Positions 3,088 to 43,094 of a stretch of 64,000 bases of DNA are shown in pieces. The position numbers and the translations under genes were made by a program. The DNA comes from Pectinatus haikarae (GTDB taxonomy: Bacteria > Bacillota > Negativicutes > Selenomonadales > Selenomonadaceae): positions 589,001 through 653,000 of the forward strand of contig NZ_WIQM01000016.1 of assembly GCF_015732185.1 (NCBI RefSeq), in the 5' to 3' direction. Numbering within the stretch: position 1 is the stretch's first letter; the number at the start of each line of letters is the position of its first letter. The notes beneath the pieces were generated by a model. It was not told where the DNA came from, searched no databases, and worked only from the letters and a program-made list of their open reading frames with translations.

Positions 3088-4125
3088 TCATACACTTATA
3101 ATTGTCTGTCCGCTTGCCTTTTTCAGACGATTCATGATAGCGAGTCCCACTCCTGTCTGTACCGTTCCTTCTGCCAAAATAACATCCACATTTTTATCGT
3201 CAAAATACAGCAGCGCATTATATAAATTAGCCGCTATTGCATATAAATTTTTTCTGCTGCCGTAATTATATACAGCATCACTGTCAAAAAGACCGGCAAT
3301 TTCACTGCTCGCTATGATCCCGACTTTGAATCCAGCCCTTTTTCGTCTGCCTAATTCCCCGGTCAAGGCTCCCAGCATATTGGCAGCTTTTCCGGAAAAT
3401 AATATCAACGGCGCTTTCGGTGCATAATGGCGATATTTCATACCGGGTGCTTTCGGCACTTCATTTTTTCCCGTTAAAGCAGGATCTACAGCTACTTTAG
3501 GAAATATTTCTTCCAGCATTTCTTTGGTAATTGCTCCCGGGCGTAAAATAATCGGTATATCTTCAGTACAATCCACTATCGTTGATTCGACACCGAAGCC
3601 TGATGGTCCGCCGTCAAGAATAAGCGGTATATGACCGTTCATGTCACGATAAACATCATTTGCGGTCGTGGGGCTCGGACGACCTGAAAGATTGGCACTC
3701 GGTGCCGCTATGGGAACTCCCGCCATACTTATCAGTTTTCTTGCCGTATCATTATCCGGCATCCTCACTCCCACTGTGGATAAACCGCCTGTAATAGCGT
3801 CCGGCACCGTGTTCTTTTTAGGCACAATTATAGTTACGGGTCCAGGGCAAAAAGCTGCCATGATCTCCATAGCCGTATGCGGCAGCCGATCCGTTACCAT
3901 AGACAGCATTCTTATACTGTCTATGTGCAGTATAAGAGGATTATCCGAAGGACGTCCCTTAGCTTTATATATTTTTGCTGAAGCCTGTGCATCAAGACCA
4001 TTCGCTCCAAGCCCGTAAACTGTTTCAGTCGGAAAAGCCACTACTTCTCCGAGCTTGATGAGTTCTGCCGCTTTTTTTATACCTGATTCCCCGGCATCCT
4101 CTACCTTTATTATTTCCGTTTCCAT
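3088..4125 (-). CDS. sua5: L-threonylcarbamoyladenylate synthase, Sua5 type
   Basis: Makes threonylcarbamoyl-AMP from threonine, bicarbonate and ATP, the first step of the t6A modification at position 37 of ANN-decoding tRNAs. At 345 residues it is the long Sua5 form: an N-terminal YrdC domain (about 1-205, with the KGRPSDNPL and PSANLSGRPSPT motifs) and a C-terminal Sua5 domain (about 235-345), rather than the short TsaC form. The start overlaps the end of prmC by 16 bases, showing translational coupling. The tsaC/ywlC names apply to the same role. Confidence 0.95.
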   Translation of the reverse strand: METEIIKVEDAGESGIKKAAELIKLGEVVAFPTETVYGLGANGLDAQASAKIYKAKGRPSDNPLILHIDSIRMLSMVTDRLPHTAMEIMAAFCPGPVTIIVPKKNTVPDAITGGLSTVGVRMPDNDTARKLISMAGVPIAAPSANLSGRPSPTTANDVYRDMNGHIPLILDGGPSGFGVESTIVDCTEDIPIILRPGAITKEMLEEIFPKVAVDPALTGKNEVPKAPGMKYRHYAPKAPLILFSGKAANMLGALTGELGRRKRAGFKVGIIASSEIAGLFDSDAVYNYGSRKNLYAIAANLYNALLYFDDKNVDVILAEGTVQTGVGLAIMNRLKKASGQTIISV

Positions 4126-5009
4126 AATATAACCACCCGCTCTATTCCTGCCAGATCTCTTAATACTTCAACTTTTCCCCAGGTATTTTTCTGCGCTAAT
4201 GCTTTTACATCCGAAGCCTGATTTATTCCTATTTCACAGGCAAAAAAACCATTTTCCGTCAACAATTCTTTACTGTCAGCCAAAAGCCGTCGGTAAAAAT
4301 TTAATCCGTCAGCATCGTCTGTCAGCGCCCTTCTCGGCTCATATGCACGCACCTCAGGAGCTAATGCAGGCATATCGGCAAGAGGAATATACGGCGGATT
4401 GGATATGATAGCTGCCAGCCGGCCTTTGTTTTCCTCTTTTTGCAGCGGTTCAAGCAGATCTCCCTGCAAAAATTCAAGGCTGTCAGCTACTTTAAGAAGT
4501 ACGGCATTCTTTTGTGCCATTGCCAAAGCCTCCGCTGATATATCAACAGCAACTCCTCTAAGATTTTTTCTCAGTTTGACCAGTGATACAGCAATGGCAC
4601 CGCTGCCCGTACCTATATCGGCAAACACAGCCTCACTGTCTCCAGGGAGACGCTCGATCGCAGCTTCAACTAAAAGTTCTGTTTCCGGTCTTGGCACCAA
4701 AACATGCTCACTGACCTTAAAAGGCATCCCCATGAATTCCTTCTGTCCTGTCAGATAAGCAACAGGTATGCGCGCAGCCCTTTTTTTTACCAGCCCGCGG
4801 AATTGCACCAGTTCATTTTCCTGCAAGGGCTCATCAAAATGTACATATAAATATATTCTTTCCTTACCTAAAAGATGGGAAAGAAGAACTTCGGCATCAA
4901 GTCTCGGCGAATCGATGGCTTTTGCAGCAAAATATTCCTGTGTCCATTTCAAAAGCGCGCCTATAGTCCATACTTTTGTATCACCCGCGTGCAATTTATT
5001 CTTTGTCAT
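4110..5009 (-). CDS. prmC: Peptide chain release factor N5-glutamine methyltransferase
   Basis: SAM-dependent methyltransferase that methylates the glutamine of the GGQ motif in release factors. The target gene prfA lies immediately upstream, six bases away. Motifs seen: an N-terminal helical domain with RLDAEVLL, the SAM loop DIGTGSGAIAVSL near residue 140, and the diagnostic NPPY near residue 205. Length of 299 residues is slightly long for the family but normal. Its start region lies just after the prfA stop, whose last codons supply a weak AGGT ribosome site. Confidence 0.95.
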   Translation of the reverse strand: MTKNKLHAGDTKVWTIGALLKWTQEYFAAKAIDSPRLDAEVLLSHLLGKERIYLYVHFDEPLQENELVQFRGLVKKRAARIPVAYLTGQKEFMGMPFKVSEHVLVPRPETELLVEAAIERLPGDSEAVFADIGTGSGAIAVSLVKLRKNLRGVAVDISAEALAMAQKNAVLLKVADSLEFLQGDLLEPLQKEENKGRLAAIISNPPYIPLADMPALAPEVRAYEPRRALTDDADGLNFYRRLLADSKELLTENGFFACEIGINQASDVKALAQKNTWGKVEVLRDLAGIERVVILWKRK

Positions 5010-40319: not shown

Positions 40320-41234
40320 TCAAGCTATAACACTGGCAGAAATATAATGCTTCAATTTGTCAATATAATTTTGTGCCAGCGGACTCAAATGAGCATGCTT
40401 ATTATAAATATAGCCCACACGAATCTTTTCCTTACTGACAAGCGGTACGGAAATAATATTGCTGCCATTAAGATCTTCACTGAGTACTCCGCTGGAAATG
40501 GTATACCCGTTCAATCCTATTGCCAGATTAAAAAGAGTTGCCCTGTCACTCACACGAATGCTTTTTTTATGAGATATGGTGCTGTGTATTTCCTCAGAAA
40601 AATAAAAAGAATTATAGGTTCCCTGCTCAAATGACAGACACGGATAAGGATCCAGATCAGTAAATGCCACAACTTTTTTATGAGCAAGCGGATGGCGGGA
40701 ACTCATAAAAACATAAGGCCGTGTAGCAAAAAGTTCGACAAATTTCAAATCATTTTCATGAAGTATTTTGCTTATTACCTGTTCATTGAATTCACACAGA
40801 TAGATAACACCTATTTCACTGCGCATATCCTTTACATCATCTATTATGTCATGTGTTTTAGTTTCGCGTAAGGTAAACTCGTATTCATCATGCTCATATT
40901 CCCTAATAAGATTCACAAAAGCATTTACCGAAAAAGCGTAATGCTGTGTGGAAATAGCAAACAGCCGGCGTGACGGTTTTTTATGCATATAGCGTTTTTC
41001 GAGAAGCTCCGTCTGCTCCAATATCTGCCGGGCATAGCTGAGAAAATCCTGTCCGTCTGAGGATAAAGACACTCCTCGGTTAGTACGGATAAATATATCT
41101 ATTCCCAGCTCCTGCTCCAAGGCTTTCACGGCATTGGACAGACTGGGCTGCGATATAAAAAGTCTTTGTGCCGCTGTGTTTATGGATCCTGAGTTAACTA
41201 TTTCCACAATATATTTTAATTGCTGAAGCGTCAT
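40320..41234 (-). CDS. LysR family transcriptional regulator
   Basis: Winged helix-turn-helix at residues 1-60 (MTLQQLKYIVEIVNSGSINTAA and RLFISQPSLSNAVKALEQELG), substrate-binding domain about 88-300. CysB/CynR-like overall. Start at the ATG at 41234 with AAGGAGA upstream; an earlier frame start lacks a site. It faces the T-box and MFS gene across a 180-base spacer and precedes the MetE-like gene, so either could be a target. The effector is not predictable; sulfur-amino-acid control of the MetE-like gene is a reasonable guess. Confidence 0.93.
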   Translation of the reverse strand: MTLQQLKYIVEIVNSGSINTAAQRLFISQPSLSNAVKALEQELGIDIFIRTNRGVSLSSDGQDFLSYARQILEQTELLEKRYMHKKPSRRLFAISTQHYAFSVNAFVNLIREYEHDEYEFTLRETKTHDIIDDVKDMRSEIGVIYLCEFNEQVISKILHENDLKFVELFATRPYVFMSSRHPLAHKKVVAFTDLDPYPCLSFEQGTYNSFYFSEEIHSTISHKKSIRVSDRATLFNLAIGLNGYTISSGVLSEDLNGSNIISVPLVSKEKIRVGYIYNKHAHLSPLAQNYIDKLKHYISASVIA

Positions 41235-41415: not shown

Positions 41416-41444
41416 TTGACATATTCAAAATATACGAGTATATT
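41416..41444 (+). promoter_or_regulatory. Promoter of the T-box leader
   Basis: TTGACA (41416-41421), 17-base spacer, TATATT (41439-41444), placing the start site near 41452. Confidence 0.75.
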
Positions 41445-41469: not shown

Positions 41470-41753
41470 TGTAATTTAATAATTTAAATTCCGTGATGGG
41501 AAAAAGTATTTTTTGCATAAGGTTCACAGAGAGTCGTTACCCGGCTGAAAGACGATAACCGTATCAGAGAAAAAAATCCTCCCTGAGAAATGTGGCTGAA
41601 CAAATTTTGTAAGCCACATCGTCTGATCCACGTTACAGGAAACGCGTATTATAATGTACGTTTGAGCGCCCGGATCAATAACATTTTCCGGGAATTTAGG
41701 TGGCACCACGGAAGCAAAACCTCCGTCCTTTTCAGGACGGAGGTTATTTTTTT
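41470..41753 (+). promoter_or_regulatory. T-box riboswitch upstream of an MFS transporter
   Basis: Complete transcriptional T-box leader. Seen in order: AGTA box (41505-41508), AGAGAG bulge (41527-41532), GGCTG apical loop motif, 3' strand of stem I ending near 41583, a stem with arms near 41590 and 41610, the T-box itself TTTAGGTGGCACCACGG (41695-41711) and an 11-base terminator with T run (41718-41753). The bulge TGGC (41701-41704) should pair with a tRNA ending GCCA. The specifier is uncertain: the probable loop 41573-41579 offers UCC (Ser) or AAU (Asn), both normally with G73. Uncharged tRNA would raise expression. Confidence 0.9.
41718..41753 (+). terminator. T-box intrinsic terminator
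   Basis: Perfect 11-base arms (41718-41728, 41735-41745), six-base loop and a run of seven Ts; its 5' arm competes with the T-box antiterminator. Confidence 0.92.
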
Positions 41754-41771
41754 ATTTTGGAGGCATCATTT

Positions 41772-43094
41772 ATGAATACTATCAATTTTACCCATTTAAA
41801 ACATCAGCGCGATCTGCGTATCATTCTGCCGGTATTTCTTGTCTCTATTATTGCCTGCGTCGATCGTGTAAATATTGCTTATGCCGCCCTTACAATGACG
41901 CAGGATCTCAACTGGATCACTCCTGAAATATTTGGGACAGGTGCCGGTATTTTCTTCATGGGCTATTTAATATTTGAGATACCCGGTTCTCTGATAGCCG
42001 TTAAATTTTCTGCCGCGAAATGGATAGCCCGCATCATGTTTTCCTGGGGTCTTGTATGCATACTTATGGCATTTATGCATACACAATTTGAATTTTATCT
42101 TTATCGTTTTTTACTTGGCGCGGCAGAAGCCAGCTTATATCCCGTTATTTATTCTGTCCTTTTTCCCCGCTGGTTCACTGCTGGTGAACGAGCCCGCGCC
42201 ACATCCCTTATGCTTACGTCATTGCTGCTCTCCACAATAATCGGCGCACCACTTGCCGGTTTTTTACTCAATACATCATTTTTTGGCATGCATGGCTGGC
42301 AGGAACTGTTTATACTCGAAGCCATACCGGCTATTTTGTTTGCCTTTTTTTTCTTATTTTGTGTAAAAGACCGCCCGGAAAAAGTAGCATGGCTTTCGAC
42401 AGAAGAAAAAAACTATCTTATCCAAGCTTATGAGAAAGAACAGTCGCGTCTGCAAAGCAAAAAGAAATACACAGTCGTGCAGGTTTTTAGTGATCCCAAG
42501 GTTTTAAAGCTATGTTTTATTTATTTTATGTGGGTAATCGGTTTTTGGGGGTTCAACTTCTGGATGCCTACCGTGCTCAAAGGTTTATCAGGCTGGTCAA
42601 CACAGCTGCTTGGCGGTGCTATCGCCATACCTATGATTGCGGCATTGATAGTGCAATTGATAATCGGCCACACGTCCAGTACAACTGGAGACAAAGTCTG
42701 GCATGTATCCGGTACCCTGTTTATCGGCGCCATAGGCCTTGGACTCAGTCCATTTGCCGCCAATATATATGAAGCTCTTTTCCTTGTCTGTCTCTCGGCC
42801 ATTGGTATTTATGCTGCGATGGGTGTATGGTGGACTATACCGACCACTTTCCTTACAGGTCCTGCGGCGGCAGCATCTGTTGCTCTTATCAATTCCTGCG
42901 GCAATCTCGGCGGCTGGGTCGGTCCTTATATGATGGGCTGGATAAAAACCTCCACCGGTTCATTTAATTTTGGCTATTTTTTGATGTCTGGTTTCATGTT
43001 TATCGCCAGCATTACTGTTCTCTCCATAAAATATAGCTGGAATAGAAAAAAAGAGACTACAGCCGCAAAAAACAAATCTTTGACTGAATCATAA
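41772..43094 (+). CDS. MFS transporter, anion:cation symporter (ACS) family
   Basis: Twelve-helix permease of 440 residues. ACS hallmarks: CVDRVNIAYAALTM near residue 33, GYLIFEIPGSLIAVK near 66, RFLLGAAEASLYPVI near 118 and the CVKDRPEKVAWLSTEEK loop near 205. Family members carry organic anions such as hexuronates, tartrate, phthalate or 4-hydroxyphenylacetate. Here it is controlled by a T-box, so its cargo should relate to an amino acid or its precursor. TTGGAGG ends nine bases before the ATG. It is alone in its transcript: a terminator follows. Confidence 0.92.
   Translation: MNTINFTHLKHQRDLRIILPVFLVSIIACVDRVNIAYAALTMTQDLNWITPEIFGTGAGIFFMGYLIFEIPGSLIAVKFSAAKWIARIMFSWGLVCILMAFMHTQFEFYLYRFLLGAAEASLYPVIYSVLFPRWFTAGERARATSLMLTSLLLSTIIGAPLAGFLLNTSFFGMHGWQELFILEAIPAILFAFFFLFCVKDRPEKVAWLSTEEKNYLIQAYEKEQSRLQSKKKYTVVQVFSDPKVLKLCFIYFMWVIGFWGFNFWMPTVLKGLSGWSTQLLGGAIAIPMIAALIVQLIIGHTSSTTGDKVWHVSGTLFIGAIGLGLSPFAANIYEALFLVCLSAIGIYAAMGVWWTIPTTFLTGPAAAASVALINSCGNLGGWVGPYMMGWIKTSTGSFNFGYFLMSGFMFIASITVLSIKYSWNRKKETTAAKNKSLTES

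Follow-up and report, generated by a model that had tools for sequence, protein, structure and literature searches.

A T-box leader that most likely reads isoleucine precedes an organic-anion-type MFS carrier gene in Pectinatus haikarae

Introduction

T-boxes upstream of transporter genes are well known, and a T-box paired with a carrier is a useful functional lead; in the portion of their paper available to us, Wels et al. used such leaders to assign transporters to a substrate class (PMC2494555). We analysed a stretch of 64,000 nucleotides from Pectinatus haikarae (the window, to which coordinates refer unless a locus is named) in which a T-box stands before the gene for an MFS carrier of the ACS type. 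Which amino acid does this leader read, and what does the answer suggest about what the carrier moves? An earlier note made from the letters of the window had offered UCC (serine) or AAU (asparagine) as the specifier.

Results

The leader upstream of the carrier gene is a genuine transcriptional T-box. It matched Rfam family RF00230 over the full model (1–219) and scored 124.7 bits, well over the gathering score of 93 bits (E = 3.2e-27); together with the bulge and the terminator this match bears out the earlier description of a full transcriptional T-box with a TGGC bulge. The features of the leader are as follows.

41416–41444, forward strand: promoter-like site, TTGACA-17-TATATT, 11 of 12 consensus positions matched (a consensus match only)
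41484–41733, forward strand: T-box leader, Stem I to antiterminator (Rfam RF00230; covariation over 24 leaders)
41498–41501, forward strand: GGGA, 5′ strand of the four-pair helix below the specifier loop, pairing with UCCC at 41580–41583 (Rfam alignment)
41575–41577, forward strand: AAU (Asn) in the -1 frame, overlapping AUC
41576–41578, forward strand: modelled specifier AUC (isoleucine) in the +0 frame (Rfam alignment and helix-checked script)
41577–41579, forward strand: UCC (Ser) in the +1 frame, overlapping AUC
41701–41704, forward strand: T-box bulge UGGC, TGGC in the DNA (read in the sequence)
41718–41745, forward strand: intrinsic terminator hairpin of 12 pairs, then the T-rich tail ATTTTTTTAT

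Two cuts containing the terminator hairpin folded at -21.6 kcal/mol, with z-scores of -5.3 and -6.9. The antiterminator was seen in the Rfam alignment; its isolated cut (41696–41738) folded no better than shuffled sequence (z = 0.20). The promoter-like site is weak evidence, with 7 such matches in the region versus 6.9 expected from shuffles. Covariation was scored over 24 leaders, made up of 22 orthologues, the leader of the genome's own BASS-type carrier and locus L165. Across ten helices, 87.0% of cells were paired and 33 of 47 pairs had changed on both sides; none of 500 shuffles reached this pairing, and slid partners gave at most 51.7%. The GGGA/UCCC helix was paired in 100% of cells, two of its four pairs showing changes on both sides.

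Read by hand, the register is ambiguous among AAU, AUC and UCC. We settled it as AUC because of the Rfam alignment, the position of the helix beside UGAG, and the behaviour of other T-boxes. The GGGA/UCCC helix directly adjoins UGAG, presumably the K-turn, and leaves one base, C41579, and then AUC. The base 3′ of the codon is thus C; the usual base after a T-box specifier codon is a purine, and among the carrier-family leaders that were read it is A or C. Loop E of the window's leader has AAA in place of GAA. The position of AUC is that of the +0 frame as the available part of the TBDB paper defines it (PMC7778990), and the leader has no serine codon in that frame. The two codons put forward by the earlier note are accordingly the +1 and -1 frames around the modelled AUC, and the modelling for which the note had called comes close to the outcome it had set against its own reading, a specifier matching an A73 tRNA such as that for isoleucine.

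As a control for the register, we read the +0 codon in the other T-boxes of the same genome, whose draft assembly comprises 17 contigs and 3.11 Mb. It holds 13 T-boxes at E up to 0.001, and 9 lie above the Rfam cut-off; the gathering score therefore misses true T-boxes (4 of the 13 here). Ten of the other T-boxes stand before genes from which an amino acid, or its family, can be predicted, and in all ten the +0 codon agreed with the gene. The helix-checked script gave UAC for DAHP synthase (where the gene predicts the aromatic family only), UUC for pheA, CUC for leuS, GUA for valS, UGG for trpE and UUC for pheS, adding one spurious codon each for pheA and trpE; Rfam alignments gave CUC for leuA and AUC for ileS, and ACC for thrS and GGC for glyQ were read by eye. 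Two further T-boxes, one before an aminotransferase gene (GCU) and one before the BASS-type carrier (AUC), lie outside this control. The script returned no candidate for several T-boxes, including the genome's own leuA, thrS, ileS and glyQ and the serA T-box of genome G025, which were read by alignment or by eye, and in this run, over the T-boxes of three genomes, it listed AUC for the window's own leader together with two spurious codons. Elsewhere it gave false extra candidates at some loci (L053, L065, L096, L115, L116 and L131, for example), only false codons at L147, and none at L094 and L144; these last three were read by eye.

The comparison of orthologous T-boxes, likewise proposed by the earlier note, also went against its two codons, AUC being present in each carrier-family T-box that was read. 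A protein search of 100 genomes found 22 loci (L044–L065, the window's own and 21 relatives) at 72–100% identity. RF00230 scored above its cut-off upstream of the carrier gene in all 22, and AUC was among the helix-checked candidates in every one of these leaders, as the sole candidate in 20. Four loci were examined at 50–58% identity: L066–L068 (50–57%) had no T-box by Rfam at E up to 0.01, and L069, which probably is the same genome as L165, has one with AUC. In a named set, which overlaps the first, a T-box was present at 48 of 79 loci (47 by pattern, and L148 by Rfam). AUC was among the candidates in 44 of these and was found by eye in the other four (L094, L144, L147 and L148). No T-box was found at the remaining 31 loci, 16 being judged by Rfam at the gathering score and 15 by the core pattern only. 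An apparent T-box core at L166 proved false and was left out of the counts. Among the named relatives, the carrier of Pectinatus cerevisiiphilus is the nearest (87% identity), and the subfamily occurs in Selenomonas, Mitsuokella, Megamonas, Megasphaera, Pectinatus and several Clostridium.

We placed 71 carriers on a tree, leaving out 8 of the 79 named loci, which lacked an automatically cut protein, and one duplicate. On it the presence of a T-box needs at least 3 changes, a minimum forced by the starred branches, versus a mean of 22.3 for shuffled labels; none of 500 shuffles was as low. T-boxes fall into three groups: 36 rows that form a Negativicutes clade, 6 in a Clostridium clade, and a single Pelosinus. 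The association between T-box and carrier looks to have been acquired repeatedly, since the Clostridium and Pelosinus rows sit among relatives without a T-box; the three changes may instead represent one gain and two losses. Finding this kind of switch in three distinct groups of carriers carries more weight than a single leader would.

The leader had no match when compared with phage sequences. Among the genome's own T-boxes, that of the BASS-type carrier (L001) was the most alike by score (218, the next being 161); percent identity was similar for several of them, so that identifying a parent T-box by likeness is unproven. In Clostridium luticellarii (L148) the T-box lies at 4510–4781 of its locus, and its core has GGCGGTACC where GGTGGTACC would stand, a replacement that would weaken pairing between UGGN and the tRNA.

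Reading AUC sets the C of the bulge opposite A73. Although tRNA-Ile(GAU) was not found in this draft genome, both copies found in a genome of the same genus (G004) end ACCA, and the genome's other two AUC T-boxes (ileS and the BASS-type carrier) have UGGU; taking A73 from these, the bulge base forms a C·A mismatch with tRNA-Ile. Every other one of the 13 bulges in the genome can pair or wobble with its assigned tRNA; the window's UGGC is alone in doing neither. The earlier note had used the bulge to argue for a tRNA with discriminator G, and it had rightly read G73 for tRNA-Ser and A73 for tRNA-Lys in the window, which end GCCA and ACCA. The C is indeed a real oddity and fits the serine frame. 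However, 19 of the 22 orthologous leaders have UGGU with the same AUC, UGGC being limited to three (the window's own, L045 and L051), and in G025 a T-box before serA combines a +0 UCC, with G as the next base, with UGGU (84.4 bits, below the cut-off; codon read by eye). For these reasons the bulge argument is weaker than it looks. The available part of the TBDB paper has bulge and discriminator pairing in the majority of T-boxes, not in all (PMC7778990). Because the pairing is not universal, the mismatch lowers the case for membership among isoleucine T-boxes and does not end it. The combination of UGGC with AUC offers a natural test of the extent to which T-boxes depend on the discriminator pair. 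The bulge of the thrS T-box also varies within the genus, being UGGG here (L010) and UGGA in P. cerevisiiphilus (L193); tRNA-Thr here has U73, which gives a G·U wobble.

We turn to the gene under the control of this leader and to its surroundings.

40320–41234, reverse strand: divergent LysR-type regulator gene, which P. cerevisiiphilus also has close to its carrier gene (91% identity); a candidate link to the carrier only
41759–41763, forward strand: GGAGG before the carrier gene
41772–43094, forward strand: ACS/SLC17-type MFS carrier, 440 amino acids (family, profile and structure matches)

The carrier scored 133 bits against PF07690 (MFS_1). Against TIGR00893, the D-galactonate transporter subfamily, it reached 262 bits, below the cut-off of 395, so that it is not placed in that subfamily. 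A profile search with the carrier found VGLUT2/3, DgoT and sialin, and an AlphaFold2 model (pLDDT 87.6) had sialin, VGLUT2 and DgoT as its best structural matches. These matches agree with the earlier assignment to the ACS type, and the link it drew through the T-box to one amino acid is supported as well. E. coli DgoT (6e9n) shares its fold with the model (E = 1.1e-12, TM 0.79) at about 18% sequence identity. All 26 aligned sequences, the window's own included, have the MFS fold with the charged set of D-R in TM1 and R...E in TM4, and D31, R32, N34, Y65, R112, E119 and N374 are invariant among them. Counted by hand on the profile alignment, these residues align with D46, R47, N49, Y79, R126, E133 and N393 of DgoT, in which, according to the parts of two papers available to us, D46, R47, Y79, R126 and E133 handle the proton and the carboxylate (PMC6532931, PMC11649914). 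By likeness, the carrier would be a carboxylate transporter of the ACS/SLC17 type, coupled to protons.

The residues of DgoT that bind the hydroxyls of galactonate, Q164, Q264 and S370, correspond in the profile alignment to L151 (M in 4 of the 26 aligned sequences), Y251 and G351 of the carrier. These replacements suggest a carboxylate with fewer hydroxyls and a less polar pocket; the hint is weak, because Y251 is common to a relative in a tartrate operon and because it rests on few sites.

The window's carrier gene stands alone, with a convergent gene like those of fructose-6-phosphate aldolase and transaldolase downstream. Two relatives have neighbours from isoleucine or branched-chain metabolism. 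In Clostridium sp. cel8 (L152) a threonine ammonia-lyase gene (TIGR01127, 491 bits against a cut-off of 379; isoleucine synthesis) lies directly 3′ of the carrier gene and, counted from its first possible start codon, shares 4 bases with it, and in a Nitrospiraceae metagenome-assembled genome (L143) a gene like those of branched-chain aminotransferases, below the listed cut-offs, precedes the carrier. At least 11 of the 31 relatives without a T-box have genes of the pyruvate/acetoin-dehydrogenase type (E1-alpha, E1-beta, lipoyl or dihydrolipoyl-dehydrogenase) within 5 kb; in Veillonellaceae, carriers without a T-box sit amid such genes at L134, L138, L140, L142 and L154. A relative of about 40% identity, among the best plasmid matches, lies in the tartrate operon of Allorhizobium ampelinum plasmid pAtS4c. 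This protein, which we take to be TtuB-like, is encoded beside a divergent LysR gene, as is the window's carrier; unlike the latter, it adjoins genes for tartrate dehydrogenase, glycerate kinase and pyruvate kinase. Family substrates thus vary, given the neighbours of the relatives without a T-box and the one in a tartrate operon, and what the contexts have in common is small carboxylates or ketones rather than any single substrate.

The window's LysR regulator had only one other match, short and at 40% identity, among the ORFs of the 79 named loci. The P. cerevisiiphilus locus L091 has an ORF at 3468–4538, placed between the genes for the LysR regulator and the carrier, whose start looks asparaginase-like by eye; the window lacks an ORF of this kind there.

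Isoleucine appears to be tied to a second organic-anion-type carrier in this genome, through the T-box of L001. That T-box (AUC, UGGU; L001/L176, C4:505350–505585) precedes a BASS/PanS-like carrier gene, which is followed by ilvD; the carrier scores below the cut-offs of these families. The genome also has a BrnQ homologue and a threonine ammonia-lyase, so an extra route to isoleucine is not obviously needed. Presence of BrnQ, of threonine ammonia-lyase or of citramalate synthase did not explain which genomes keep the carrier.

Discussion

From the T-box with its +0 AUC and terminator, the conserved pairing of T-box and carrier, and the conserved coupling residues, all directly observed, we infer a response to isoleucine starvation, a direction of transport and a kind of substrate. 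The leader would be an ordinary T-box of class I (transcription-terminating), with AUC as the codon for tRNA-Ile(GAU). Uncharged tRNA-Ile would pair with AUC and, less well owing to the C in UGGC, with the bulge; this pairing would favour the antiterminator over the terminator at 41718–41745, and the carrier gene would be transcribed. The carrier would then most likely import a carboxylate that feeds isoleucine synthesis and the isoleucine pool, for example a branched or C4 2-oxo- or 2-hydroxy-acid, and less likely isoleucine itself. We regard this explanation as a whole, an isoleucine T-box read through AUC that controls a proton-coupled carboxylate carrier supplying isoleucine synthesis, as probable.

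That the T-box reads isoleucine, and not serine or asparagine, is the most likely reading of the leader, and what decides it is best seen by following the neighbouring frames. A T-box answering serine only in the window's lineage would have UCC as its specifier, and UCC is present, with a bulge C that pairs with G73 of tRNA-Ser. Under serine, however, there is no reason for the A of AUC to be kept in each carrier-family T-box read; P. cerevisiiphilus has UCA in place of UCC; and the +0 frame agrees with the gene in all ten controls. The 19 UGGU orthologues and the UGGU of the G025 serA leader, where serine is read in the +0 frame, also speak against it, and we consider it very improbable. Asparagine through AAU in the -1 frame fares worse. 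The codon is there and tRNA-Asn has G73, yet a U precedes AUC (GAAUAUC) at L051, L060, L092, L120 and L128, which destroys AAU, and this reading has next to no weight with us.

A mixed reading deserves somewhat more attention. In Pectinatus and in G025 the T-box might answer two tRNAs, AUC serving for tRNA-Ile and the overlapping UCC or UCA for tRNA-Ser, and the change from U to C in the bulge would fit G73 of the latter. All three UGGC leaders have UCC or UCA in the +1 frame, and the genome has tRNA-Ser(GGA) and tRNA-Ser(UGA), both with G73. A T-box answering both tRNA-Asn and tRNA-Glu is known as well; we give it no evidential weight. The lysK T-box of Bacillus cereus answers tRNA-Lys and tRNA-Asn according to the part of that paper available (PMC2916919), and TBDB, as far as its description was at hand, considers the -1 and +1 frames too (PMC7778990). 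On the other hand, UCA or UCC occurs in the +1 frame of UGGU orthologues also and so says nothing by itself, a codon that abuts the helix would have no free base beneath it, and the serA leader again combines a +0 UCC with UGGU. We hold the two-codon reading to be unlikely. Slightly less likely still is its fuller form, in which an isoleucine T-box would have become a dual switch for isoleucine and serine in two lineages, tRNA-Ser would pair best, and the carrier would answer two starvation signals. Returning to tRNA-Ile as the preferred partner, one may ask whether the carrier moves isoleucine or branched-chain amino acids themselves. Wels et al., in the part of the paper available, give transporters the amino acid of their T-box (PMC2494555), and the repeated association of T-box and carrier fits any substrate related to isoleucine. 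Against this, the residues with which proton-coupled organic-anion carriers achieve coupling and handle the carboxylate are invariant here, the nearest solved relatives are anion carriers of the SLC17 type, and the relatives' contexts are organic-acid catabolism or isoleucine synthesis. Isoleucine as the substrate is therefore possible but clearly the weaker reading, and import of a carboxylate for isoleucine synthesis is the one that we prefer.

The leader shares Stem I, the AUC specifier, a UGGN bulge, a predicted antiterminator and a terminator with the isoleucine class of T-boxes (RF00230; ileS and branched-chain synthesis), which in this genome includes L001 and L012; it differs in having UGGC rather than UGGU, C after the codon, AAA for GAA, and an ACS-type carrier under its control. 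In the table of Wels et al., the isoleucine entries are ABC and LIVCS systems and MFS stands in the lysine row; no isoleucine-controlled MFS carrier was seen in it, as flattened text from the available part of the paper (PMC2494555). Nor did the literature searched mention an isoleucine T-box before an ACS/MFS carrier; TBDB lay outside this search, and absence is unproven. The T-box would give the carrier subfamily a concrete physiological role in isoleucine supply. Should it move a branched or C4 oxo- or hydroxy-acid, the carrier would offer anaerobes of the rumen and gut a route to salvage precursors of isoleucine.

Upstream of the ileS T-box, and on the strand opposite to it, there is a c-di-AMP riboswitch (L012, 1972–2104, forward strand); P. 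cerevisiiphilus has one likewise (L200, 1971–2103, forward strand).
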